Source: Bryobacterales bacterium (lineage in GTDB: Bacteria > Acidobacteriota > Terriglobia > Bryobacterales > Bryobacteraceae). Taken from it: 47,441 nucleotides of DNA. Positions 23,622 through 34,383 of the stretch are shown here, piece by piece (the first letter of the stretch is position 1; the number at the start of each line of letters is the position of its first letter). The position numbers were made by a program, and so were the translations under genes. The notes under the pieces were generated by a model that saw only the letters and a list, made by a program, of their open reading frames with translations, was not told the origin of the DNA and searched no databases. The stretch covers positions 34,221 through 81,661 of the forward strand of contig PLOR01000108.1 of assembly GCA_003142185.1 (NCBI GenBank), in the 5' to 3' direction.

Positions 23622-24995
23622 TCACCCCAACAGCCGGTACTCCTTTAACTTCCGGTACAGATTTCGCTCGCTGATCCCCAATATTCGCGCCGCATTCCCC
23701 CGGTGCCCGTGGTTCGACTCCAGCGCCCTCCGGATGTGCATCACCTCCAGTTCCACCAGCGTCGGAAACTGGCCTCCGTCCACAAGTGGTGCGGCTGGCG
23801 CCGCCACGCCCGCCAGCGCCGCTCCCCGCACCGACTCCGGCAGATGCTCCGCCCGAATCTCCCCGCCCTCGCACACCACCGCCGCCGCCTCCACTGCATG
23901 CAGCAGTTCCCGCACATTGCCCGGCCACCCGTGCCCGCGCAGCGCCTCCAACGCGCTCTCGCCCAGCACCTTCCCCGTCCCGTACCGCTCATTCAGCGTC
24001 TTCACGAAACGCCGCGCCAGCAGCTCTATGTCGCCTCCGCGCTTGCGCAACGGCGGAACCTCGACCGTGATCGTGCTCATCCGGTAGAACAGGTCTTCCC
24101 GGAATAGCCGCTTCCCCACCATCGTCCGCAGATCCCGATTGGTCGCCGCCAGCACCCGCACATCCACCCGGATCTCGCTCGTCCCTCCCAAGTGGCGGAA
24201 CGCCGACGTATCCAGCACCCGCAGCAGATTCACCTGCGTGGCCTGGCTGATCTCCCCGATCTCGTCGAGAAAAATCGTCCCCCCGTGCGCCACCTCGAAC
24301 AGCCCCGGCTTGGCCTTGTCGGCGCCGGTGAACGCGCCCCGCTCATGCCCGAACAGCTCGCTCTGCAACAGGCTCTCCTGCAGCGCCGCGCAGTCCACCA
24401 CCACAAACGGTTTCGCCTTGCGCGGGCTGCGCGCATGAATCAGCTTCGCCACCCGCTCCTTCCCGCTGCCCGTCTCCCCCGCGATCAGCACCGTCGAATC
24501 GCTCGGCCCCACCAACTCCACCAGGTGCAGCATACGGCGGAATTCCGGACTCTCCCCTAAGAAGGATGCCGCCTGGTCCGGCGGCGTCAGCGCCCGCTCC
24601 AGCAGGCTCGTCCGCTGCTTGAGCGCCCTCCGCTCGATCGCCCGCTGCACCCGGATCTGGATCTCGTCCAGCGGGCACGGCTTGGTCACATAATCGAACG
24701 CCCCGTCGCGGATCGATTCGATGGCGCTATCGATGGATCCGTGTCCCGTCAGCATGATCACTTCGATCGACGCGTTATGCCCGCGGATTGCCTTCAATGC
24801 CTCGAGGCCATCCATCCCCGGCAGCCGAAGATCCAGCAGCACTACCTCCGGCTCCCACTGTTCCACTTGCGCCACCGCCTCTTCCCCCGACGACGCCGTC
24901 ACCACCTCGTGACCCAGCCGCCGCAGTTCGCCCGCCATCACATTGCGGAATGCCGCATCGTCATCCACCAGCAGAATCGAGGCCGTGTTCTTCAC
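23622..24995 (-). CDS. NtrC-family sigma-54-dependent response regulator
   Basis: A 457-residue activator: receiver domain (1-120; DDD at 11-13, phospho-Asp55 in LLDLRLPG, Lys105), AAA+ domain (about 145-385) with Walker A GETGSGKE (173-180), the sigma-54-contacting loop GAFTGA (220-225) and Walker B TIFLDEIGE, then a Fis-type helix-turn-helix at the C-terminus (NHGHRGNAARILGISERNLYRKL). The start is GTG at 24995, overlapping the kinase stop as GTGA; no ATG is available before the receiver domain. It should activate a sigma-54 promoter, and one lies in the same locus at 26898-26911 with upstream dyads. The cognate kinase is the preceding gene. Confidence 0.95.
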   Translation of the reverse strand: MKNTASILLVDDDAAFRNVMAGELRRLGHEVVTASSGEEAVAQVEQWEPEVVLLDLRLPGMDGLEALKAIRGHNASIEVIMLTGHGSIDSAIESIRDGAFDYVTKPCPLDEIQIRVQRAIERRALKQRTSLLERALTPPDQAASFLGESPEFRRMLHLVELVGPSDSTVLIAGETGSGKERVAKLIHARSPRKAKPFVVVDCAALQESLLQSELFGHERGAFTGADKAKPGLFEVAHGGTIFLDEIGEISQATQVNLLRVLDTSAFRHLGGTSEIRVDVRVLAATNRDLRTMVGKRLFREDLFYRMSTITVEVPPLRKRGGDIELLARRFVKTLNERYGTGKVLGESALEALRGHGWPGNVRELLHAVEAAAVVCEGGEIRAEHLPESVRGAALAGVAAPAAPLVDGGQFPTLVELEVMHIRRALESNHGHRGNAARILGISERNLYRKLKEYRLLG

Positions 24996-26782
24996 GCGGC
25001 CCCCAGCGCCGGCAGCACGACCTCGAACGTCGACCCCCGGCCCACGATGCTCTCCACCCGGATCTCCCCTCCCCACCGCCGCACGAAATTCAGCGAGAGG
25101 AACAGCCCCAGCCCCGTGCCGCCCTGCCGTGCGCTGAAGAATGGCTCGAAAATGCGCTTCTGGTCGTCGGCCGCGATGCCGCACCCGTCGTCGATCACCC
25201 GGATTCGCATCTGCTCTCCCGCCTCCGCTTCCACGGTCACCTGCCCGCCTGCCTTCGATGCCTGTACCGCGTTCAGCAGCAGATTGATCAGCGTGTGCTG
25301 GAGTTCCGCTTCGTCCGCGCGCACGTGCATCCCCGCCGGCGCCGGCCGCACCTCCACTCTCACCGAATGCGCGCGCGCCGTCGGCTCGATCAGCCGCGCC
25401 ACCGCTGCGATCACCGGTCCCAAATCCACCACTTCCCCCTGCCCCCGCTGCCCGCGCGAGAGCCGCAGAAAGTGCTGCGTGATCCCGCGACAGCGCAGAA
25501 TCTGCTCGCGCGCGATCGACGCGCTGTCCCGGATCCACGCCTCGTCCGCCCCGTCGCCCGACGTCTCCCGCAGGATACCCTCCACGCACATCAGCACCGT
25601 CGCCAGCGGCGTGTTCAACTCATGCGAGAACCCCGAAGCCAGCGTCCCCAGCGACGCCAGCCGGTGCGACTCCGCCAGGTGCGCCTCCGCCGCGCGCCGG
25701 TCCGAAATGTCGCGCCAGACTTCCACCACGTGCAGCAGTTTCCCTTGGGAATCGAGAATCGGCGAGGCGTGCACTTCCTCCCACACTATCTGCCCTTCCG
25801 GCGTACGCCGCTCGCACAGCCGCACTTGCCGCGCCCCGCTTGCCAGGCAGGCCAACGTCGGACAGTCCTCAACTGTGCAGCCGCCTGGAGTCAGCTCGCG
25901 GCACTGGCACCCCAACACCTGCTCGCGCGAATGCCGTGCCCGTTCCAGAAACGCATCGTTGGCCGCGATTACGCGCCGCTCGGCGTCCAGCACCACGATG
26001 CCGTCGTCAATGCTGTTGATCACCGTCTCCAGCCGCTCCCTCTGATGGCGCACTTCCCCCACCAGCCCCGTCACCGAATCGGCCATCGTGTTGAACTCGC
26101 GCGCCAGCCACGAAATCGTATCGCTGCCCCCCGCCGGCACGCGCTTCTCCAGGTCCCCCCCCGCGATCTGCCGGGCCGCCGTCTCAAACCGCTGCAATCG
26201 CCGCAGCACCGCCACGCGGATCACCACTCCGATCGCCCCCACCAATAGCAGCGTGATCGCGGCCGTCCCTCCCACCATCCAGCCCAAGTCGTGCGCCATC
26301 TCCTGGCTCAATTCCGTCGTCCGGTAATCCAGGATCAGGACGCCGTTGATCTTGTGGCTCGGGTCATGGCAGCCGTAACACTCCGCACGGTTGCGGATCG
26401 GCACCACCGTGCGCAGCACCTCACCCTTGCGCGCTTCGATCACCCGACTCGATCCTGCCTGGTCGGCGGGCACCTGCAACTCCCGCTCCGCACCCGCGCG
26501 GTCCAGGAGCACCAGTCGCTCCACCCAGCTTTGCTTGCGGAAGCTCTCCATCATTTTGGCGATCAGCGTCCGGTCGTTCTCGATCATCTGGTGTTCCAGC
26601 GCCACCCGAATCAAATCGCCCTCGGCCAGAGCGGTCGCCCGCGCCCCCTTGAGCAGAGATCGCATGTGGTGCTTGGAGTATAGGTAGGCGCCGCCGGCAC
26701 ACGCCAGCACAACGGCCGCGGTGACACCTACTGCCAGACCCACGGTCGTGCTGGCGAAGGACGGCTTTGTTCCGCTGGCCAA
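24992..26782 (-). CDS. Sensor histidine kinase with a predicted periplasmic c-type haem site, HAMP and PAS
   Basis: A 596-residue kinase. Helix one (14-35) and helix two (168-191) enclose a periplasmic domain of about 130 residues that carries a single haem-binding motif, CYGCH (135-139), followed by HKINGVLILDYR. Then come HAMP (about 192-245), a PAS domain (250-360) with an unusual cluster of six cysteines (292-323), the phospho-His387 (SGFSHELNTPLAT) and an ATPase domain (NLLLNAVQAS, DDGCGIA, GGTGLGLFLSLNFV). It probably senses redox state, a gas or an electron acceptor through the haem and phosphorylates the NtrC-type regulator. The only start in frame before helix one is TTG at 26782; a GTG at residue 14 is an alternative. 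Confidence 0.9.
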   Translation of the reverse strand: MASGTKPSFASTTVGLAVGVTAAVVLACAGGAYLYSKHHMRSLLKGARATALAEGDLIRVALEHQMIENDRTLIAKMMESFRKQSWVERLVLLDRAGAERELQVPADQAGSSRVIEARKGEVLRTVVPIRNRAECYGCHDPSHKINGVLILDYRTTELSQEMAHDLGWMVGGTAAITLLLVGAIGVVIRVAVLRRLQRFETAARQIAGGDLEKRVPAGGSDTISWLAREFNTMADSVTGLVGEVRHQRERLETVINSIDDGIVVLDAERRVIAANDAFLERARHSREQVLGCQCRELTPGGCTVEDCPTLACLASGARQVRLCERRTPEGQIVWEEVHASPILDSQGKLLHVVEVWRDISDRRAAEAHLAESHRLASLGTLASGFSHELNTPLATVLMCVEGILRETSGDGADEAWIRDSASIAREQILRCRGITQHFLRLSRGQRGQGEVVDLGPVIAAVARLIEPTARAHSVRVEVRPAPAGMHVRADEAELQHTLINLLLNAVQASKAGGQVTVEAEAGEQMRIRVIDDGCGIAADDQKRIFEPFFSARQGGTGLGLFLSLNFVRRWGGEIRVESIVGRGSTFEVVLPALGAA

Positions 26783-26794
26783 AGGTTCGCTCGA

Positions 26795-26823
26795 ATCATG
26801 TCACATCCTGCCGGAAGCGTCAA
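26795..26823 (-). promoter_or_regulatory. Sigma-70-like promoter of the sensor kinase
   Basis: On the minus strand TTGACG (26823-26818) and CATGAT (26800-26795) are 17 bases apart. The -10 ends 12 bases before the TTG start at 26782, leaving a leader of about 5 bases. The tandem dyads begin 5 bases upstream of the -35, so the regulator may also affect its own operon. Confidence 0.4.
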
Positions 26824-26827
26824 CGGC

Positions 26828-26858
26828 TGACGCCCTGTCAGTGACATTTTGTCAGTGA
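26828..26858. promoter_or_regulatory. Tandem TGAC-N5-GTCA dyads, candidate enhancer for the NtrC-type regulator
   Basis: Two perfect inverted repeats lie side by side: TGAC-GCCCT-GTCA (26828-26840) and TGAC-ATTTT-GTCA (26842-26854), separated by one base. A further GTGA follows, so the 9-base string TGTCAGTGA also occurs twice 14 bases apart. They are centred about 80 bases before the predicted sigma-54 start site, the typical position for an enhancer bound by paired regulator dimers. The repeats are direct observations; the binder is inferred from the adjacent gene. Confidence 0.6.
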
Positions 26859-26897
26859 TCCATCGCCGGCGGTTGAAGTCTCAGCCACTTACGCTTT

Positions 26898-26911
26898 GGC
26901 TGCCGGCGTGC
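26898..26911 (+). promoter_or_regulatory. Sigma-54 (-24/-12) promoter of the cytochrome/NrfD operon
   Basis: TTGGC at 26896-26900 and TGCA at 26909-26912 give the invariant GG (26898-26899), 10 bases, GC (26910-26911) spacing of sigma-54 promoters. Transcription would start near 26923, just ahead of the AAGGAG ribosome site (26928-26933) and the ATG at 26943. The presence of a GAFTGA activator gene and dyads upstream supports the call. Confidence 0.62.
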
Positions 26912-26942
26912 ACCTGGCCGGCTTCGAAAAGGAGACCGGCTG

Positions 26943-27272
26943 ATGGAAATGTTGCTGATGGGAGCCGCTCTGGCTATGTTCGGGCTGGCCGTGTCCTGCC
27001 TGGCCTTCGGTGCGGCGACGCACGAAGAGCCCGTCATGGAACAAGAGCCCGCCCTGGGAAAAGAAGCCGTGAAGGCCGCGGCTGTCAATGCACGATTTTT
27101 CGCCGCCGTCCCGGCCCTGCCCGTGGCCGCCGCCAACCGCGTTCCGATCGAAGCGTTGCTCTTGCAGATCGAAAACCACGTTCGCCTGGAGCAGGCGGCC
27201 GCCGCATGCTTCCTTGAATCCCCCAGCGCCGACGTGCTGCATGGCAGGACCATCTCCCCACTGGTGAATTGA
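26943..27272 (+). CDS. Small membrane-anchored protein, first gene of the electron-transfer operon
   Basis: A 109-residue protein with one N-terminal hydrophobic helix (LLMGAALAMFGLAVSCLAFGAA), then a polar, alanine-rich tail without known motifs. The ATG has AAGGAG at 9-base spacing directly after the sigma-54 promoter. It ends one base before the next start, so it belongs to the operon with the cyclic-nucleotide-domain protein, tetrahaem cytochrome, ferredoxin and NrfD protein. Not recognised; possibly an assembly or small subunit of the membrane complex, which is inference from position. Confidence 0.6.
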   Translation: MEMLLMGAALAMFGLAVSCLAFGAATHEEPVMEQEPALGKEAVKAAAVNARFFAAVPALPVAAANRVPIEALLLQIENHVRLEQAAAACFLESPSADVLHGRTISPLVN

Positions 27273-27273
27273 C

Positions 27274-27738
27274 ATGATTGACGCCGAACTCTTGAAGGGC
27301 CTGCCGCCGGCCGAAGCCGAACGCGTGCTCGCGCTCGGCAAGCGCTTACTGCTCACCGCCGGCGCGGAGCTCTTCCACCTCGGCGACGCCGCCGGCAGCC
27401 TCTATCTGGTCGCGCGCGGCCGCGTTCGCCTTACTCTTCCCATGCAAGTGCGCCATCACGAAGAGGACATCCTCGTCGAAGAATGCTCTTCCGGCCAGAC
27501 CGTCGGATGGTCCGCGCTGATTCCTCCCCATCGTTTCACCCTCACCGCGGCGGTGCCGCTCGAAACCGAGGTGATCGCGCTCGGCCGCGAAGCGCTCAAC
27601 GCGTACTTCGCCGCCCATCCCGATACCGGCTACGCCGTCTCGGTCAATCTCGCCAGCGTCATAGGCCAGCGTCTGCAACTATTCCAGGCCATGTGGCTCC
27701 GCGAAGTCCAACGGATGGTGGAATTGCGCTGTGCGTAG
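27274..27738 (+). CDS. Stand-alone cyclic-nucleotide-binding-domain protein (Crp/Fnr sensor module without DNA-binding domain)
   Basis: A 154-residue protein made of one cNMP-binding beta-roll: FHLGDAAGSLYLVARGRVRLTL (about 35-55), then EECSSGQTVGWSALIPPHRFTLTAAV and a C-terminal helix (LASVIGQRLQLFQ). It ends after that helix; the winged helix of Crp/Fnr regulators is absent, so it is unlikely to bind DNA by itself. The start lies one base after the previous stop and its end overlaps the cytochrome gene by 8 bases. Placement in an electron-transfer operon suggests ligand- or redox-dependent control of the complex. The phosphate-binding Arg pattern is not clearly conserved, so the ligand is open. 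Confidence 0.85.
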   Translation: MIDAELLKGLPPAEAERVLALGKRLLLTAGAELFHLGDAAGSLYLVARGRVRLTLPMQVRHHEEDILVEECSSGQTVGWSALIPPHRFTLTAAVPLETEVIALGREALNAYFAAHPDTGYAVSVNLASVIGQRLQLFQAMWLREVQRMVELRCA

Positions 27739-28243
27739 TGGCCTCCTGCTCTTGCTGCTGTCTGGGGGGATTGTGCCGGCGGCGGACGGACCGAAGATTC
27801 CGCCCGCCCCGGCCGGGCCGGAACGTATCGAGGTTCCGCCACCGCCCTTCTCCGATGGCATCTTCCCCTGCACCAACTGCCACGCTGGAATGCCCGTCGA
27901 CCGCACCCGCCGCGAGCTCACCGCGATGCACACCGATATCGTTCTCAAGCACGACGAAACTCACCGCTGGTGCTTGGATTGCCACGATCCCACCAATCGC
28001 GACTTCCTTCACCTGGCCAGCGGCGAGCGCGTCCCGTTCGACGAATCCTACCGCCTGTGCGGCCAGTGCCACGGCGAAAAATACCGTGACTGGCGCGCCG
28101 GCGTCCACGGCCGCCGCACCGGCAACTGGAACGGCGCCAAAGAGTACCTGTTGTGCGCGCACTGCCACAACCCTCACCAGCCGCGCTTCAAACCGCTGGC
28201 TCCCAAGCCCGCGCCGCAGCGCCCCGACCGGAGCATGAAATGA
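27731..28243 (+). CDS. Tetrahaem periplasmic cytochrome c
   Basis: A 170-residue protein with a signal peptide (MRSGLLLLLLSGGIVPAADG) and four CxxCH motifs: CTNCH, CLDCH, CGQCH and CAHCH, the last followed by NPHQPRF. The start is GTG at 27731 inside the end of the previous gene; no ATG precedes the signal peptide. It overlaps the ferredoxin gene as ATGA. Next to a ferredoxin and an NrfD protein it resembles the cytochrome subunit of DsrMKJOP/Qrc/Hmc-like quinone-linked complexes, passing electrons between the membrane module and the periplasm. Confidence 0.88.
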   Translation: MRSGLLLLLLSGGIVPAADGPKIPPAPAGPERIEVPPPPFSDGIFPCTNCHAGMPVDRTRRELTAMHTDIVLKHDETHRWCLDCHDPTNRDFLHLASGERVPFDESYRLCGQCHGEKYRDWRAGVHGRRTGNWNGAKEYLLCAHCHNPHQPRFKPLAPKPAPQRPDRSMK

Positions 28244-29109
28244 CCGACTCCGAGAAGCCCTCGCGGCGCATGTTCACCGCCAGCGCCGGAGCCGCTTTCG
28301 CAGGCATGGTCCTCACCGCCTGCGGCCCCAAGCGGCTCTACGAAGTCCCCCAACACAAGCTGAAAGCCTCCATCGCGGAAATGGAGCGCCGCTACAAGGA
28401 ACAGCTCGGCAAAGACATCCAAGTCTCCGACCAGGGCCCGATGCCCGGTGTCCATTTCGCCTTCGCGCTCGATATCTCGCGCTGCATCGGCTGCCGCCGC
28501 TGCGTCTACGGCTGCGTCGCCGAAAACAACCAGTCGCGCGACCCGCAGATCCACTGGATCCGCGTCTTCTCCATGGAGAAGGAAAAGGGCGTCGACTTCA
28601 CCCACGCCGACCCCTACTACAATCCGCCCGAGGTCCCCGAAGAAGGCCACTTCTACGTCCCCGTCGGCTGCCAGCAGTGCGAGAATCCGCCCTGCACCAA
28701 GGTCTGCCCTACAGGCGCCACCTGGGCCGAGAAGGACGGCATCGTGGTCATCGATTACGACTGGTGCATCGGCTGCCGCTACTGCATGGCGGCCTGCCCC
28801 TACGGCGCGCGGCACTTCAACTGGAAAGCGCCCACCATTCCCGAAAACGAAATCAATCCCCACACCCATTACCTCGGTAACCGCCCGCGGCCCAAGGGCG
28901 TGGTCGAGAAGTGCACCTTCTGTATCCAGCGCTCGCGCGAGGGCCGCTACCCCGCCTGCGTGGAAGTCTGCCCGGTGGGCGCGCGCAAATTCGGCAACAT
29001 CCTCGATCCCAATAGCGAGATCCGTTACATCATCGAGCACAAACGCGTACTGGTCCTGAAAGAGGAGTTGAACACCGTCCCGCGATTCTTTTACTTCTAT
29101 GCAACCTGA
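28240..29109 (+). CDS. Exported four-cluster ferredoxin (DsrO/NrfC/HybA-like)
   Basis: A 289-residue iron-sulfur protein with a Tat-type signal (SRRMFTASAGAAFAGMVLTAC, which also resembles a lipobox). Four cysteine groups each suit a 4Fe-4S cluster: CIGCRRCVYGC, CQQCENPPCTKVCPTG, CIGCRYCMAACPYG and CTFC...CVEVCPVG. It is the electron-relay subunit that sits on the NrfD membrane protein encoded next; the two genes overlap by 11 bases. Start at 28240 overlaps the cytochrome stop (ATGA). No molybdopterin catalytic subunit is in the operon, so this is a quinone-oxidising or quinone-reducing module rather than a complete reductase. Confidence 0.93.
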   Translation: MTDSEKPSRRMFTASAGAAFAGMVLTACGPKRLYEVPQHKLKASIAEMERRYKEQLGKDIQVSDQGPMPGVHFAFALDISRCIGCRRCVYGCVAENNQSRDPQIHWIRVFSMEKEKGVDFTHADPYYNPPEVPEEGHFYVPVGCQQCENPPCTKVCPTGATWAEKDGIVVIDYDWCIGCRYCMAACPYGARHFNWKAPTIPENEINPHTHYLGNRPRPKGVVEKCTFCIQRSREGRYPACVEVCPVGARKFGNILDPNSEIRYIIEHKRVLVLKEELNTVPRFFYFYAT

Positions 29110-30379
29110 GAGTGCAGTCAACAGCATCCGCATGTTCGGCGGATTCGCGCGTGGCAGCCTGAAGCTGATCCTCCGCGGCAACCGGATGTATTGGACTTGG
29201 CTCGCGTTTCTGGGCGCGCTCATCGTCTCCGGCGCGCTGGCCTATTCGCGGCAGGTCGAAATCGGCCTGGGGCTCACTGCCATGCGTGACCAGGTGAGCT
29301 GGGGATTTTACATCGGCAATTTTACGTTCCTGGTGGGCGTGGCGGCAGCCGCGGTGGTGCTGGTGATCCCGGCCTACATCTACGACTGGAAGCCTATCCG
29401 TGAGATCGTCATCTACGGCGAGTTGCTGGCCATCAGCGCCATCACCATGTGTCTGTTGTTCGTGCTGGTGGATATCGGCCGTCCCGACCGCTTCTGGCAC
29501 CTGATTCCGCCCTTCGGATTTCTGAACTTCCCGAGCAGCATCCTGGCCTGGGACGTGCTCGTGCTGAACCTGTACTTCATCTTGAACTTTTCGGTGGCCA
29601 CCCACATCCTGTACCGCGCTTTTCACGGCAAGCACTATATCAAGCGCCTGGTGGTCCCGCTGGTGCTGCTTTCCGTCCCCATGGCGGTCGGCATTCACAC
29701 TGTGACCGCGTTCCTGTACAACGGCCTGGCCGCGCGCCCCTACTGGAATAGCTCGATTCTGGCGCCGCAGTTTCTGGCGTCGGCCTTCTGCTCCGGTCCG
29801 GCGATTCTGCTGATCGTGCTCCAGGTGCTGCGCCGCTTCACACGCTTCGAAATCCAGGACGCCGCCATCTGGAAGATCGCCGAGCTGATGGCCTACGCCA
29901 TGTTCCTGAACCTGTTCCTGCACGGCGCCGAAGCCTTCAAGGAGTTCTACTCCAACACGCAGCACCTGCTGTTCACACGCTACTGGTATTTCGGCGTGGG
30001 CGGGCACCACACCCTGGTCCCCTACGCCTGGACCGCCGTGGCGCTGAACCTGCTCGCGTTCGGATTGTTCATCTCCCCGGCCGCGCGCCGCAATTTCCTC
30101 ACGCTGAACATCGGGTGCCTGGCCACCTATGCCGGCGTGTACATCGAGAAGGGTATGGGGCTGATCATCCCCGGCCTGACCCCGGACACGCTGGGCGAGA
30201 TCTACGAATACTACCCAACCGTCACCGAGTTGCGCGTCGCCGCCGGCATCTTCGCGGTGGGATTCCTGCTCTTCACACTGATGCTCAAAGTTGCGGTACC
30301 GATCTCGCTGGGTGAGTTTCTGGACAAAAAGGAAGCGGCGGCGCATGCGCAGGAAGTGGACTTGCCGTGCACGGTTTGA
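29099..30379 (+). CDS. NrfD/DsrP-like quinone-interacting membrane protein
   Basis: A 426-residue integral membrane protein with about ten helices, of the NrfD/PsrC/DsrP superfamily. Recognisable are YWTWLAFLGALIVSGALAYSR, QVSWGFYIGNFTFLVGVAAAAV, VDIGRPDRFWHL and a histidine-bearing GIHTVTAFLYNGLAARPYW segment. These proteins exchange electrons with the quinone pool and hand them to, or take them from, the ferredoxin subunit. The start (ATG at 29099) lies inside the ferredoxin gene. Last gene of the sigma-54 operon; no terminator hairpin is evident after it. Confidence 0.93.
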   Translation: MQPESAVNSIRMFGGFARGSLKLILRGNRMYWTWLAFLGALIVSGALAYSRQVEIGLGLTAMRDQVSWGFYIGNFTFLVGVAAAAVVLVIPAYIYDWKPIREIVIYGELLAISAITMCLLFVLVDIGRPDRFWHLIPPFGFLNFPSSILAWDVLVLNLYFILNFSVATHILYRAFHGKHYIKRLVVPLVLLSVPMAVGIHTVTAFLYNGLAARPYWNSSILAPQFLASAFCSGPAILLIVLQVLRRFTRFEIQDAAIWKIAELMAYAMFLNLFLHGAEAFKEFYSNTQHLLFTRYWYFGVGGHHTLVPYAWTAVALNLLAFGLFISPAARRNFLTLNIGCLATYAGVYIEKGMGLIIPGLTPDTLGEIYEYYPTVTELRVAAGIFAVGFLLFTLMLKVAVPISLGEFLDKKEAAAHAQEVDLPCTV

Positions 30380-30493: not shown

Positions 30494-30893
30494 ATGCGAC
30501 ACGCGATGAGGGCTATCCCCTTCTTATTGGCTGTCGGCGCACTTCCGGCGCTGGCGGCGACGTTGCCGGCCTATTGCGGCGGCGTCGGCGCGAAAAGCTA
30601 TACCCCTCCCGCGGTGACCATTCCCGCGGTGGTTCTCAATCGCGGCACGGTGATCACGGTCACCAATACCTCGATGCTGATTAATGACGACACGTCCTCG
30701 GTGTCGGCGCCTCCGGAATCAAGGGCATCAACGTGGTGGCCGGAGTGGATGCCGCGAGTGCAAACCAGATGCAGCAGTTGCTGGTGGCAGACAATCTGGT
30801 GGGAGGAGTGCTTGGCGCTGCGTCCATTTTCCCCTACCTGGGCAGTGGTGGCTCGGGAAACACGATATCGATTTCACAAGTCCCCAGCCCCGC
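30494..30893 (+). pseudogene. Frameshifted, truncated secreted-protein gene
   Basis: The gene begins with a signal peptide (MRAIPFLLAVGALPALAA) and reads in frame to about 30699 (...NTSMLINDDTSS). It then continues sensibly only in a different frame from 30700: GVGASGIKGINVVAG, ANQMQQLLVADNLVGGVLG and ISISQVPSP. A one-base loss near 30699 would explain this. The reading ends at the IS630 fragment, so the 3' part is missing. GGAG lies 10 bases before the ATG at 30494. The low-complexity glycine/valine-rich style suggests a surface or extracellular protein; family unknown. Confidence 0.55.
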
Positions 30894-31528
30894 TAGGTCT
30901 TTGACCGCTTAAAAGGTTTGGGTTTGTAGCCAAACTTCCGGCGAGCGGTCTTGCGGTCGAACTTCCAGGCGATCTTGACACGATCTCGGTTCATTCGTCG
31001 GTTCCAGGCTCTCGCTTCTTGGCGGAGAGTCTTGAGGTCAGGGATGCGTCGATGCCCAAGGCATTGGCGCGAGAAGATCCCGATCTCAATCTCCGCCTGA
31101 TTTAGCCAACTGCCGTGAGTGGGCGTGTAATGGACGGTAAAGCGATCCCAGACTTCGGTGGCCATTTCCGCTCCAAAGGCGTCCGCTAACGCTTTGCGGC
31201 GATGGATATTCAGGTTGTCCAGTACCAGATGGATCGTCTCCGCCTCCGGATATGCCATTGCCAAGGCGACCGCGATACGGGCGAACTCGAAGCCCGAGCG
31301 ATCCGGCGTCGCGAAAGTGAAATGGCGGCCTGCCTTCGGTTCTACGGCACAGAAAACATTGGCGGTCCCGCGACGCTCATATTCGTTATCCCGTCGCGCT
31401 TCTCGTCCTGGAACCGCCGGCGAGGCGGGCCGCAGATCGGCGTGCAGCGTGATCGGCTTCTCATCGACGCAGATTACCGGCTCTTGCGGGCTGTACGGCC
31501 GTTCGTACACCTCCAAGACGTCTTCCAT
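30893..31528 (-). pseudogene. IS630-family transposase, C-terminal half only
   Basis: Encodes the catalytic DDE part of an IS630 transposase: EPVICVDEKPITLHADLRP (first Asp), GTANVFCAVEPKAGRHF, ETIHLVLDNLNIHRRKALAD (second Asp) and THGSWLNQAEIEIGIFSRQ (final acidic residue). The reading frame continues upstream through IAKMEDVLEVYERPYSPQE to about 31598, where it is cut by the ISNCY element. The N-terminal helix-turn-helix half, about 130 residues, is nowhere in the window, so this copy is inactive. Confidence 0.85.
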
Positions 31529-31598
31529 CTTGGCGATATACTGGACCGTGCAGACGGCTGTCGTTTCCGAGTTGAAGCAGCAATGCAGAATTTGACGG
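30894..31598 (-). mobile_element. IS630-family element, truncated
   Basis: About 0.7 kb remain of an element that is normally 1.1-1.2 kb. A TA dinucleotide at 30894-30895, the usual IS630 target, marks the junction with the disrupted secreted-protein gene. The other end is missing: the sequence beyond the second ISNCY target duplication (33335 on) is not IS630-like, so truncation happened before or together with the second insertion. Confidence 0.6.
31584..31598 (+). repeat. Left copy of the 15-bp target duplication
   Basis: TGCAGAATTTGACGG directly precedes the left inverted repeat and is repeated exactly at 33320-33334 directly after the right one. With the ambiguous outer bases the match is 17 bp (31583-31599 against 33319-33335). 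Confidence 0.85.
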
Positions 31599-31762
31599 TG
31601 TCAAGGCAAAGTAGAAAGTTCCGCTTTCGGGCAAAGTAGAAAGTTCCGGTTTTGAGTGGCCGCGGCGACCACCCGTGGTATGTTCGACCCGCAGCGCCGG
31701 GGTCGCGCCTGGCGCTGCTACCCAAAGCCGAGGCGACGGGGTTGGCTCCGAAGCAATCGGCG

Positions 31763-31910
31763 AATGCCCTCCTGTGACGCAGAACCCGTGAGTCTTTCCG
31801 GAGCGCCAGGAGGGCATTGTCGAGCCGAGGCCTATTGCTTTGGTGAGACTCCCGAGCGGAGGCTTTGGGTATATAAAACGCGAAGATCGCCGGGCCGCTT
31901 TTGCCCGGCG
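31763..31910 (+). other. Structured non-coding segment inside the ISNCY element
   Basis: Between the left inverted repeat and the transposase stop there are about 290 bases with no credible gene. AATGCCCTCCTG (31763-31774) pairs perfectly with CAGGAGGGCATT (31807-31818) across 32 bases, and flanking segments CCGAAGCAAT and ATTGCTTTGG extend the pairing imperfectly. Next, CGCCGGG (31888-31894) and CCCGGCG (31904-31910) form a 7-bp hairpin followed by T-rich sequence on the plus strand. It could be a terminator, a regulatory structure or a small RNA of the element. The pairing is visible; the role is open. Confidence 0.5.
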
Positions 31911-31939
31911 TTCCTTATTGACTGCTTCTGGTTTTCCGC

Positions 31940-33232
31940 TTAACTCCTCGCGTTGGCAATTCCGACCGCTTGCCACAGCTCCGGTCGTGGGCGTTCGAAG
32001 AATCCATCCATCCAATCGCTCTTGCCGCCCCGATTGTGATCCTTGCGAACCGGCTTCCCCACCGGCTTTACCGCCGGCGATTTGACACTGCACTCGCTGA
32101 CTTCCACATACTGCCCTTCGTAGCGCGCGCGGAGCTCTCCGCTCAGATGTAGCTCGACTCGCAGGCTCTTTCCCCGCATCCCCGCCTTCACTTGCGGGCG
32201 CGCAATCTGGTAGCGTCGGCCGGCAAAGGAAAACGTGTAGTCGTTGGTCAGCATGCGGTGCTCCACATGACTCAGCGCACTCGCCAAATCCAGCTGTGGC
32301 GTAAGCGCTCGATGCAGGTCCACGACGCCTTCCAGCGGGTGCGCAAAGCGCTCGTTCCACTCCGGCCAATACTCCGCTTCCAGAAACTTGTTGGCATCCT
32401 GCAGGGTCTTCACCTTTGCCAGTCGCACGTGCTTCACCAGCCGGTCCTGATCGGTGCCGAAGCTTCGCTCCACTCTCCCCTTGGCTTGCGGCGAATATGC
32501 CGGAATCCAGCCGATTCCCAGCTCCCTGAGGCCCCGGCCAAACTGCGTTAAGCGATCCGCCTCCCGCCGCTGCTGGGCGCTTTCCTTGGCCTGTGGCGCC
32601 ACCATGAAGATCCCCGCCCGGTCGGTGTACGGATCCACCATTCGCCCCTTGCAGGCCACGTACTGCCACAGCACGCCCATGTTCTCCCGCGTCCCGTCGT
32701 GCTGTACAAAGCTGCCTCCACTGCGGCTGGTCGCATCGTCGATCCACTTCACCAGGTAGCGCACGACTTCGCCGCGTCCCTCCAGCCAATCGTGATTCGA
32801 CGTATCCCACTGCACCAACTCCCCGTACCCGTTCCGTCGCGGTCGCCAGAAATGCCTCTCGCCGAGTTGGCGCGGCTGCGCCTTCCATAGCCCTGCCGCT
32901 ACCATCCATCCGCGCACCGTCTCCTTGCTGACCTCGATGCCGTGTCGCTTGGCCAACTGCTGGCTGGCGAACGTCGGTCCGAAGTCGTGCCACTCCGGCT
33001 GCTTCAATAACTCCACCACACGCGTCTGCGTCTGTTCGTCGATCCGCCGGTTCGACGACCGGCCGCGCAGCCCGTGCACGACAACCGCGTCGCCATCGGT
33101 CTTCAAGCGCACCAGCAACCGGCGCACCCAGCGGTCGCTGACGCCCATCTTTGCGGCGGCTTGCCCTTGCGTCACCATCCCATCCTGTACCCGCTTCAGC
33201 CATTCCAGCCAATCTCGTTCCTCCTGGTTCAT
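31940..33232 (-). CDS. ISNCY-family transposase
   Basis: A 430-residue transposase. The N-terminus has paired helix-turn-helix domains (VTQGQAAAKMGVSDRWVRRLL and GIEVSKETVRGWMVAAGLW). An RNase-H-like integrase core follows: ELVQWDTSNHDWLEGRG (first Asp), WIDDATSRSGGSFVQHDGT, and IPAYSPQAKGRVERSFGTDQDRLVK (second Asp region and final Glu). The C-terminal part (YTFSFAGRRYQIARPQ) is the beta-rich tail seen in this family. It appears intact, so the element may be active. Start ATG at 33232 rather than the GTG at 33247, on spacing to GGTGG. Confidence 0.85.
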   Translation of the reverse strand: MNQEERDWLEWLKRVQDGMVTQGQAAAKMGVSDRWVRRLLVRLKTDGDAVVVHGLRGRSSNRRIDEQTQTRVVELLKQPEWHDFGPTFASQQLAKRHGIEVSKETVRGWMVAAGLWKAQPRQLGERHFWRPRRNGYGELVQWDTSNHDWLEGRGEVVRYLVKWIDDATSRSGGSFVQHDGTRENMGVLWQYVACKGRMVDPYTDRAGIFMVAPQAKESAQQRREADRLTQFGRGLRELGIGWIPAYSPQAKGRVERSFGTDQDRLVKHVRLAKVKTLQDANKFLEAEYWPEWNERFAHPLEGVVDLHRALTPQLDLASALSHVEHRMLTNDYTFSFAGRRYQIARPQVKAGMRGKSLRVELHLSGELRARYEGQYVEVSECSVKSPAVKPVGKPVRKDHNRGGKSDWMDGFFERPRPELWQAVGIANARS

Positions 33233-33319
33233 CGCGATTCGTTCCACCCTTCCAGTTTTTTCCTGTCAAGAGGAACTTTCTACTTTGCCCAATTAGGAAC
33301 TTCTCACTTTGCCGCGACA

Positions 33320-33334
33320 TGCAGAATTTGACGG
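33320..33334 (+). repeat. Right copy of the 15-bp target duplication
   Basis: Exact copy of 31584-31598. The two perfect copies suggest a fairly recent insertion. This copy ends at the first base before the candidate -35 box of gmd. Confidence 0.85.
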
Positions 33335-33363
33335 TTGACAACCCACATGGCGCTTGATACAAG
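33335..33363 (+). promoter_or_regulatory. Promoter of gmd at the edge of the insertion
   Basis: A consensus TTGACA (33335-33340), a 17-base spacer and TACAAG (33358-33363) lie directly to the right of the ISNCY target duplication. Transcription would start near 33370, three bases before the ATG at 33373, so the message would be almost leaderless. The insertion appears to have left the promoter intact. Confidence 0.45.
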
Positions 33364-33372
33364 TGGATGACG

Positions 33373-34383
33373 ATGTCGCAGAGGAAGGCACTAATCACCG
33401 GTATCACGGGGCAGGACGGCTCCTATTTGCTGGAACTACTCCTGGCCAAGGGCTACCAGGTCCACGGTGTGGTTCGGCGGGTAGCATTAGAGGACCCGGA
33501 ACACCGAATGTCGCGGATTCTGCCGCACCTGAATGAAGTGCAATTGCACTCGGCCTCGCTCGAGAGCTACCCGAGTTTGCACAACGTGCTCGCGCGCGTG
33601 CAACCCGATGAGTGCTACCACCTTGGCGCACAGAGTTTCGTCAGCTATTCTTTTGACGATGAGTTCTCGACCTTCAATGCCAACATCAATGGAACACATT
33701 ATCTATTGGCTGCACTGAAAGAAGTTGCTCCGCGCTGCCGGTTCTATTTCGCCGGCACCAGCGAGATGTTCGGACTGGCGGATGAAGTTCCGCAGAACGA
33801 GAGGACTCGCTTTCACCCACGGTCGAGTTACGGCATCAGTAAAGTCTGCGGCTTCGATCTCACGCGGAACTACCGGGAAGCTTATGGAATTCACGCCAGC
33901 AGCGGCGTCCTCTTCAATCATGAGTCGCCGCGCCGCGGTTTCGAGTTCGTCACGCGGAAGATCACCTCCGGGATCGCCCGCATCCTCGCTGGACAAGCTA
34001 CCGAATTGCGGCTCGGCAACCTTGAGGCCCGGCGTGACTGGGGCCACGCCCGCGAATACGTCGAGGCCATGTGGCTCATGCTCCAGCAGCCGGAGCCGAA
34101 CGACTACGTCATCGCGACCGGCGAGAGCCACTCGGTTCGGGAGTTTGTGGAAGTGGCATTCGACCACGTGGGGCTGGACTGGAACGCGTACGTGCGCGAA
34201 TCTCCGGAGTTGTACCGCCCGGCGGAGGTGAATTCCCTTCTGGGCGACGCCTCAAGAGCGCGTGCCACACTCGGCTGGCGGCCTAAGACAACCTTCGAGC
34301 AGCTCGTGGGGGAAATGCTGGAAGCAGACTGCCGCGCGTTGGGAGTTGCTGCGCCAGGTATCAGCAGTGCTCATCACCGCTGA
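33373..34383 (+). CDS. gmd: GDP-mannose 4,6-dehydratase
   Basis: Converts GDP-D-mannose to GDP-4-keto-6-deoxy-D-mannose, the branch point to GDP-fucose, -rhamnose and -perosamine. About 336 residues, the usual family length. The N-terminal NADP motif ITGITGQDGSYLLELLL is diagnostic; the catalytic triad is seen as FAGTSEMFG (Ser/Thr, Glu) and SSYGISKVCGF (Tyr, Lys). FNHESPRRGFEFVTRKI and RRDWGHAREYVEAMW are family signatures. An ATG at 33367 two codons earlier is possible, but the promoter geometry favours 33373. Its likely partners, a DegT aminotransferase and a PerB-type acetyltransferase, are in the leftward operon further right. Confidence 0.95.
   Translation: MSQRKALITGITGQDGSYLLELLLAKGYQVHGVVRRVALEDPEHRMSRILPHLNEVQLHSASLESYPSLHNVLARVQPDECYHLGAQSFVSYSFDDEFSTFNANINGTHYLLAALKEVAPRCRFYFAGTSEMFGLADEVPQNERTRFHPRSSYGISKVCGFDLTRNYREAYGIHASSGVLFNHESPRRGFEFVTRKITSGIARILAGQATELRLGNLEARRDWGHAREYVEAMWLMLQQPEPNDYVIATGESHSVREFVEVAFDHVGLDWNAYVRESPELYRPAEVNSLLGDASRARATLGWRPKTTFEQLVGEMLEADCRALGVAAPGISSAHHR

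Follow-up and report, generated by a model that had tools for sequence, protein, structure and literature searches.

Comparison of orthologous loci indicates that two adjacent palindromes in a Bryobacterales genome are a real, conserved enhancer of a known kind, unusually compact at this locus and near-fixed in geometry among its relatives. The reading as a whole, which we regard as very probably correct, is that they form the NtrC-type enhancer of the neighbouring response regulator at a sigma-54 promoter at 26897, and would drive a DsrJOP-like operon through a haem-motif kinase system. The anatomy of the site, its conservation, the specificity of the pair and the joint variation of regulator and dyad are read directly from sequence. 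The window, meaning the whole stretch of 47,441 nucleotides that was analysed (G000:C24:34221-81661), comes from a genome of 5.79 Mb in 119 contigs. It contains exact TGAC-N5-GTCA dyads at 26828-26840 and 26842-26854, separated by one base. On one side of them lies the divergent gene for the kinase (24992-26782, minus strand), on the other an operon on the plus strand that begins at 26943. The features are as follows.

23622-24995, minus strand: NtrC-type sigma-54 response regulator (receiver, AAA+ and Fis-type HTH by Pfam; GAFTGA; Asp55)
24992-26782, minus strand: histidine kinase with CxxCH haem motif, HAMP and PAS (Pfam; CxxCH in 25 of 25 loci examined)
26795-26823, minus strand: predicted sigma-70-like kinase promoter, TTGACG-N17-CATGAT (promoter search)
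26827-26841, no strand: predicted distal enhancer palindrome, CTGACGCCCTGTCAG (15-mer; exact match, kept in orthologues)
26841-26855, no strand: predicted proximal enhancer palindrome, GTGACATTTTGTCAG (15-mer; exact TGAC-N5-GTCA core, kept in orthologues)
26856-26896, plus strand: spacer from enhancer to promoter, 41 bp in the window and about 60 bp in most relatives
26897-26912, plus strand: predicted -24/-12 (sigma-54) promoter, TGGCTGCCGGCGTGCA (motif search; position kept in orthologues)
26943-27272, plus strand: first operon gene, for a small protein whose N-terminus is hydrophobic (no match in Pfam or NCBIfam)
27274-27738, plus strand: cyclic-nucleotide-binding (cNMP)-fold protein (Pfam; no DNA-binding domain)
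27731-28243, plus strand: c-type cytochrome with four CxxCH (Pfam; motif count)
28240-29109, plus strand: DsrO-like iron-sulfur protein (NCBIfam DsrO, 181.5 bits, below the cut-off of 200)
29099-30379, plus strand: DsrP/NrfD-type membrane subunit (NCBIfam DsrP, 416.5 bits, over the cut-off of 350)

Base 26841 is common to both 15-mers and, with the C of GC counted as -12, the dyad centres lie near -75 and -89. The initial annotation described two TGAC-N5-GTCA dyads one base apart upstream of a -24/-12 element, and both dyads are indeed exact in the window. Its estimate of about 80 bases to the promoter agrees with the distance to the likely start site and not with that to TGG, which is 42 bases from the second dyad. 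Taken alone, the -24/-12 element of the window is weak and moderately better than chance, with 13 of 200 letter shuffles scoring equally well.

It is the pair, and not the single dyad, that stands out. The 47-kb window has 12 single dyads with at most one mismatch where 17.2 would be expected, which is no enrichment; the only exact ones are the two of the pair. The tandem pair scores 19 of 20, whereas dinucleotide shuffling of the upstream 250 bp reached at best 16 in 200 rounds. Across the 257 genomes of the order, a strict tandem pattern occurs in 18 genomes at 19 places, 13 of which are this promoter, and its reversed control occurs at 6 places. Nineteen order genomes contain the operon's first gene, and 13 of them have the strict pair at this promoter. 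The initial annotation had held that random occurrence of the dyad elsewhere at the same rate would speak against an enhancer: the single dyad does occur at such a rate (26 exact copies in the whole window genome against 30 for the reversed pattern), whereas the pair does not. Single-dyad enrichment was accordingly rejected as a line of evidence, since the counts in window and genome are at background.

The strict pair occurs at 6 other places, the same number as for the control, and TGG-N9-TGC was found within 160 bp downstream at none of the 6. For these reasons this promoter appears, as judged by the strict tandem pattern in 257 order genomes, to be the sole target of the pair, and no wider regulon was seen with that pattern in those genomes. 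The initial annotation had suggested scanning the genome for the dyad near other sigma-54 promoters to define a regulon. The window's genome has 24 further single dyads; eight of these were fetched with their flanks, and none of the eight had TGGC-N8-TGC within 150 bp on either side. Other tandem CTGAC-N5-GTCAG pairs were noticed at L118 (G156:C92) and L121 (G062:C483), both without TGG-N9-TGC within 160 bp.

To follow the site through related genomes, the first operon gene (109 aa) served as the locus marker. Searches recovered it from 19 of 257 order genomes, from 12 of 396 genomes sampled across the phylum and from 20 of 193 genomes of another class, some of the weaker matches being of a divergent type; G036, a genome of the window's genus, has neither the first gene nor a close regulator, which counts for the enhancer reading. 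The named relatives that have the locus are Acidobacteria drafts, including Bryobacteraceae and Candidatus Sulfopaludibacter. In most loci fetched that far the same layout recurs, with regulator and kinase on one side and small protein, cNMP-fold protein, cytochrome, FeS protein and NrfD/DsrP on the other. After near-identical rows were removed, 38 unique upstream regions were kept. L144 and L094 (78 bp upstream only) and L079 (partial gene) were left out, as were 12 regions with a 60-mer common to a kept one, among them L099, L154 and L158 from another genome and close to L098. L081-L086, L090 and L093 were left out because they lie on the same contigs as other rows.

The tandem score exceeded all 200 dinucleotide shuffles in 35 of these 38 regions, the exceptions being L074, L077 and L106, whose scores were reached by 5, 80 and 2 of 200 shuffles; these controls leave shared ancestry in, and related regions are not independent. 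A shorter earlier test, with 250 bp from each of 31 regions, gave 28 of 31, with L067 (1/200), L074 and L077 as exceptions. The search for -24/-12 elements was controlled with letter shuffles; because it demanded GG and the G of GC, the conservation of these three letters follows from the search itself. In the counts by dyad column, the one surviving dyad of L074 and of L077 was entered in both columns.

The distance between enhancer and promoter is close to constant. Measured from the start of the proximal dyad to the T of TGG, it is 75-79 bp in 28 of the 38 regions; the count rises to 30 with L074 and L077, for which the distance was set by hand to their one surviving dyad (77 and 78). The -12 to start-codon distance, by comparison, varies from 24 to 205. 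Exceptional distances are 56 (window), 67 (L061, L062 and L078), 98 (L104), 94 (L105) and 157 (L106), and L067 is ambiguous at 66 or 79. Dyad-to-dyad spacing is 22-23 bp in 27 regions and 19, 21 and 24 bp once each; L067, L074, L077 and L106, listed at 13 bp, all have no clear second dyad. In most relatives the dyad centres fall at about -95 and -118, as against -75 and -89 in the window. The 14-base period, taken by the initial annotation to fit an enhancer for paired dimers, is confined to a single clade (support 0.955) made up of L060 (the window), L061, L062 and L063, and is not the rule. With 22-23 bp as the usual spacing, 14 bp confined to one clade and the shortest promoter distance of all, the window is, by this comparison, the most compact form (56 bp) and a derived one.

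Length changes among the exceptions may have come in helical steps, and the data here are suggestive only. Five of the seven exceptional distances lie near whole turns from the common value, with L105 (94) and L106 (157) out of phase. A V-test on the seven distances, which left out L067 (66 or 79), gave p = 0.035 for a 10.5-bp period and 0.069 with the clade collapsed; over periods of 10 to 11, p ran from 0.002 to 0.17.

The spacer itself has a regular composition. In the 30 regions with 75-79 bp, A/T peaks stand near -38, -28, -17 and -8 from TGG, so that A/T patches are phased at about 10.5 bp, and all 30 have A or T at -17. The power at 10.5 bp was 3.84 in these regions against at most 1.79 in 1000 letter shuffles. 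For 27 spacers of less than 50% identity it was 3.74, against at most 1.81 when shuffled and 2.89 when phases were slid at random. The window has C at -17 with T on either side, because its spacer is shorter. An IHF-like match in the window spacer is weak (TCTCAGCCACTTA, 7 of 9), and perfect IHF-like sites are present in the sister genomes L069 and L070. The mean score against the IHF consensus reached 4.03 of 9 at -28, compared with a maximum of 3.23 in 500 shuffles (letter shuffles were used for the A/T and IHF tests too), a rise that A/T phasing alone could yield; over 37 spacers the best IHF match exceeded shuffles only slightly (6.2 against 5.6). Four HU/IHF-family matches are found in the window's genome. 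A bend site between enhancer and promoter is known from IHF-assisted sigma-54 promoters (PMC7962754). L069 and L070 resemble these in having an IHF-like site in the spacer, whereas the other relatives mostly have phased A/T patches, and for this reason IHF, HU, intrinsic bending and alpha-CTD contact are indistinguishable here.

We then considered which protein would bind the pair. Two sequence features expected of an NtrC-type upstream activating sequence are present at this locus: dyad-symmetric sites lie upstream of a -24/-12 element, and the adjacent activator has an AAA+ sigma-54 domain, GAFTGA and a Fis-type HTH. All 25 loci examined, from 23 genomes, encode a regulator with the receiver Asp and with GAFTGA, GAFTSA or GSFTGA. 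To these features we added one of our own, that site and activator should vary together, and this held with the helix residue of L097 excepted. Seven loci (L109, L110, L111, L155, L156, L157 and L159) have a divergent type of regulator, small protein and cNMP-fold protein and were treated separately from the 38 regions. Six of the seven have a paralogous regulator in the fetched stretch. In five of these six (L110, L111, L155, L156 and L159) a CTGAC-N6-GTCAG pair scored above all 200 shuffles and there was no N5 pair; four of these loci have 33-34 bp between their N6 sites. The sixth, L109, has a perfect N5 pair, no N6 pair and the recognition helix SERN of the N5 type. L157 has no N5 or N6 pair, no -24/-12 site and no regulator in its fetched stretch. 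SERN is the recognition helix in 16 of 17 main-type regulators as well as in L109, and the five N6 loci have SERT or SERS. The exception is L097, a main-type locus with N5 dyads and a SERT helix. Since there are five N6 loci and one N5 locus with a SERN helix, site type and regulator type vary together, and this joint variation is, as far as sequences can tell, the best evidence short of binding. Comparison thus lends strong support to the proposal of the initial annotation that the pair is an enhancer for paired dimers of the adjacent regulator, through pair specificity, conservation and co-varying types.

Six loci (L062, L071, L077, L101, L146 and L151) have no kinase in the fetched flank; in L101 it is about 2 kb away. 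For L062, on a contig of 3.2 kb, genome G045 has a regulator orthologue (78%) on another contig, and the orthologue for L146 in genome G710 (67%) lies about 6 kb from the locus on its own contig. Two drafts, each about 80% complete, bear on the enhancer reading in opposite ways. G236 (L071) keeps an intact pair with no regulator above 51% identity among the matches listed, which counts against it, whereas G223 (L077), with none above 49% among the matches listed, also has a degenerate pair, which counts for it.

Several other explanations for the dyads have to be weighed against this reading. That they are random palindromes would fit the background frequency of single dyads, but pair and position are conserved in orthologues, and the comparison refutes chance to the point where we give it a vanishingly small probability. 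We think it improbable that another factor, such as a CRP/FNR-type protein or another sigma-54 activator, binds the dyads in place of the adjacent response regulator. In its favour, the regulator protein has 84 matches, full-length and partial, in the one genome G000, so its relatives there are numerous; the operon, moreover, encodes a cNMP-fold protein. That protein, however, has no DNA-binding domain in Pfam, a -24/-12 promoter requires an enhancer-binding protein, and the dyad type tracks the local regulator type. A different possibility is that the functional element in the window lineage is a fused central palindrome, TGTCAGTGACA, rather than two N5 dyads. The 14-bp spacing does yield TGTCA-N1-TGACA in the window, L061, L062 and L063, but the arrangement is confined to the 14-bp clade, and regions elsewhere with two clear dyads have them 19-24 bp apart; we judge this highly improbable.

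Closer in probability, and still rather unlikely in our estimate, is that the dyads serve both promoters, as sigma-54 enhancer and as a place where the regulator, bound beside the kinase -35, would activate or repress the kinase-regulator operon. The initial annotation had remarked that the pair abuts the divergent -35, which is accurate: the minus-strand hexamers are TTGACG (26818-26823) and CATGAT (26795-26800), 17 bp apart, and the -35 lies 3 bp from the distal 15-mer. The autoregulation drawn from this closeness fared less well. The distal 15-mer stands 3-5 bp from the kinase -35 in 15 of 38 regions, distant families included, but this may reflect compactness or shared ancestry, and 68-1255 bp separate the two in L061, L065, L067, L070, L147 and L149. 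The other 17 regions have a gap of 8-33 bp (7) or are without a confident kinase promoter (10). Despite the remote kinase promoter, L065, L070, L147 and L149 still have 75-77 bp between dyad and sigma-54 promoter, and the dyads therefore go with the latter. By eye, extra DNA lies between kinase promoter and dyads at L042:5500-6200 and L043:6240-6500, that of L043 having inverted ends and resembling a small mobile element. The first possible kinase start in the window, a TTG at 26782, is about 13 bases from the -10 hexamer (26795-26800), so near that the true start may be further downstream.

Taking the dyads as the enhancer of the sigma-54 promoter, we examined what it may control. The sensor belongs to the divergent unit: a region of the kinase is weakly like the Mcp40H-20 periplasmic haem sensor (PF21563; 23.5 bits, under the cut-off of 27). 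The operon recalls DsrMKJOP: its membrane subunit scores over the DsrP cut-off, DsrO is the nearest relation of its FeS protein and a cytochrome c gene is adjacent. It differs in that the FeS protein falls under the DsrO cut-off and in that the cytochrome has four haem motifs, whereas DsrJ is described with three haems (PMC8076601). As the genome of the window also has no dsrA match, membership in DsrMKJOP was not accepted. In a selection of 30 genomes having the first gene, dsrA was over the cut-off in 5, G500 had a split match just below it and 24 were without a strong match. Two dsrA matches (G045:C446:8022-9176 and G062:C463:2502-3656) have one internal TGA. Among the loci listed, no further gene behind the DsrP-like one is common to most. 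In the window, transposase-like frames, identified by eye, occur at 30893-33407, shortly after the NrfD/DsrP gene.

The genes behind the small protein and cNMP-fold genes differ in two loci. In L092 (4880-7672) and L134 (4189-7010), Rieske-like, cytochrome b-like and multihaem cytochrome-like frames, recognized by eye in translations, stand there in place of cytochrome, FeS and NrfD genes. L134 is from the genome of L100, which the tree places as sister to L092 (support 1.0), so that a single replacement is probable. What the loci would have in common is a complex for quinone-cytochrome electron transfer that a haem-based redox signal switches on.

Known systems resemble this one in part. Like the glnA NtrC-type enhancers of enteric bacteria, it has tandem sites for a GAFTGA response regulator upstream of a -24/-12 promoter; the palindrome here, CTGAC-N5-GTCAG, is a different one. 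The glnA sites are reported about 90 and 140 bp upstream of the start, and glnA activation is described as tolerating 1000 bp and more; NtrC sites must be no nearer to the start than about 70 bp, and a system with two sites depended on the face of the helix (PMC7408454). In contrast to this tolerance of distance at glnA, 30 of the 38 regions here keep 75-79 bp to the -24 element, and the window variant (-75/-89) is near the NtrC minimum (PMC7408454). In Desulfovibrio vulgaris, the sigma-54 activator gene DVU3142 is likewise divergent from an operon for a cytochrome c, an FeS protein and a membrane subunit, ohcBAC, upstream of which activator sites are predicted; it differs in being grouped with one-component activators, in its octahaem cytochrome and in its lineage (PMC4641369). 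Among the titles listed in searches of open-licence literature, none described this enhancer element and none was a study of sigma-54 enhancers for this phylum, and the main text of a sigma-54 regulon survey (PMC12316311) has no word beginning 'acidobacteri'.

From these comparisons we infer binding, phosphorylation, a loop and a redox signal in a model in which the dyads are the upstream activating sequence of the promoter at 26897 and two dimers of the response regulator (23622-24995) would occupy the two palindromes. The haem-motif kinase would phosphorylate the regulator, whose AAA+ ring may then assemble on the dyad pair and touch the sigma-54 RNA polymerase by means of a short loop across the spacer. 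That such a loop is short, bent and helically phased is suggested by the near-fixed spacing together with the phased A/T patches. Opening of the promoter would turn on the operon for the small protein, the cNMP-fold protein, the cytochrome and the DsrO-like and DsrP-like proteins.

A bolder reading, which we offer tentatively and favour less than its opposite, is that a unit of rigid geometry is kept across distant families of the phylum, made up of regulator pair, bent spacer with A/T patches on one helical face and promoter, that its length changes mainly in steps of about one turn, and that it travels as a portable sensor module. With the spacer element placed by a weak IHF-like match, the window lineage would have lost three steps: from 23 to 14 between the dyads, from about 34 to 23 between dyad and spacer element, and from 28 to 18 between element and promoter. 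If this is true, the loop of the window would be nearly the shortest able to work, and the sensor would travel with its enhancer and the small-protein head as a portable unit for different quinone-cytochrome complexes, DsrJOP-like ones or, in L092 and L134, Rieske plus cytochrome b.

The locus provides a well-defined predicted sigma-54 enhancer, with a likely cognate regulator and target, in this phylum. Its 38 natural variants make the geometry of short enhancer loops testable, and the arrangement would connect a DsrJOP-like module for electron transfer with a sensor kinase that has a haem motif.
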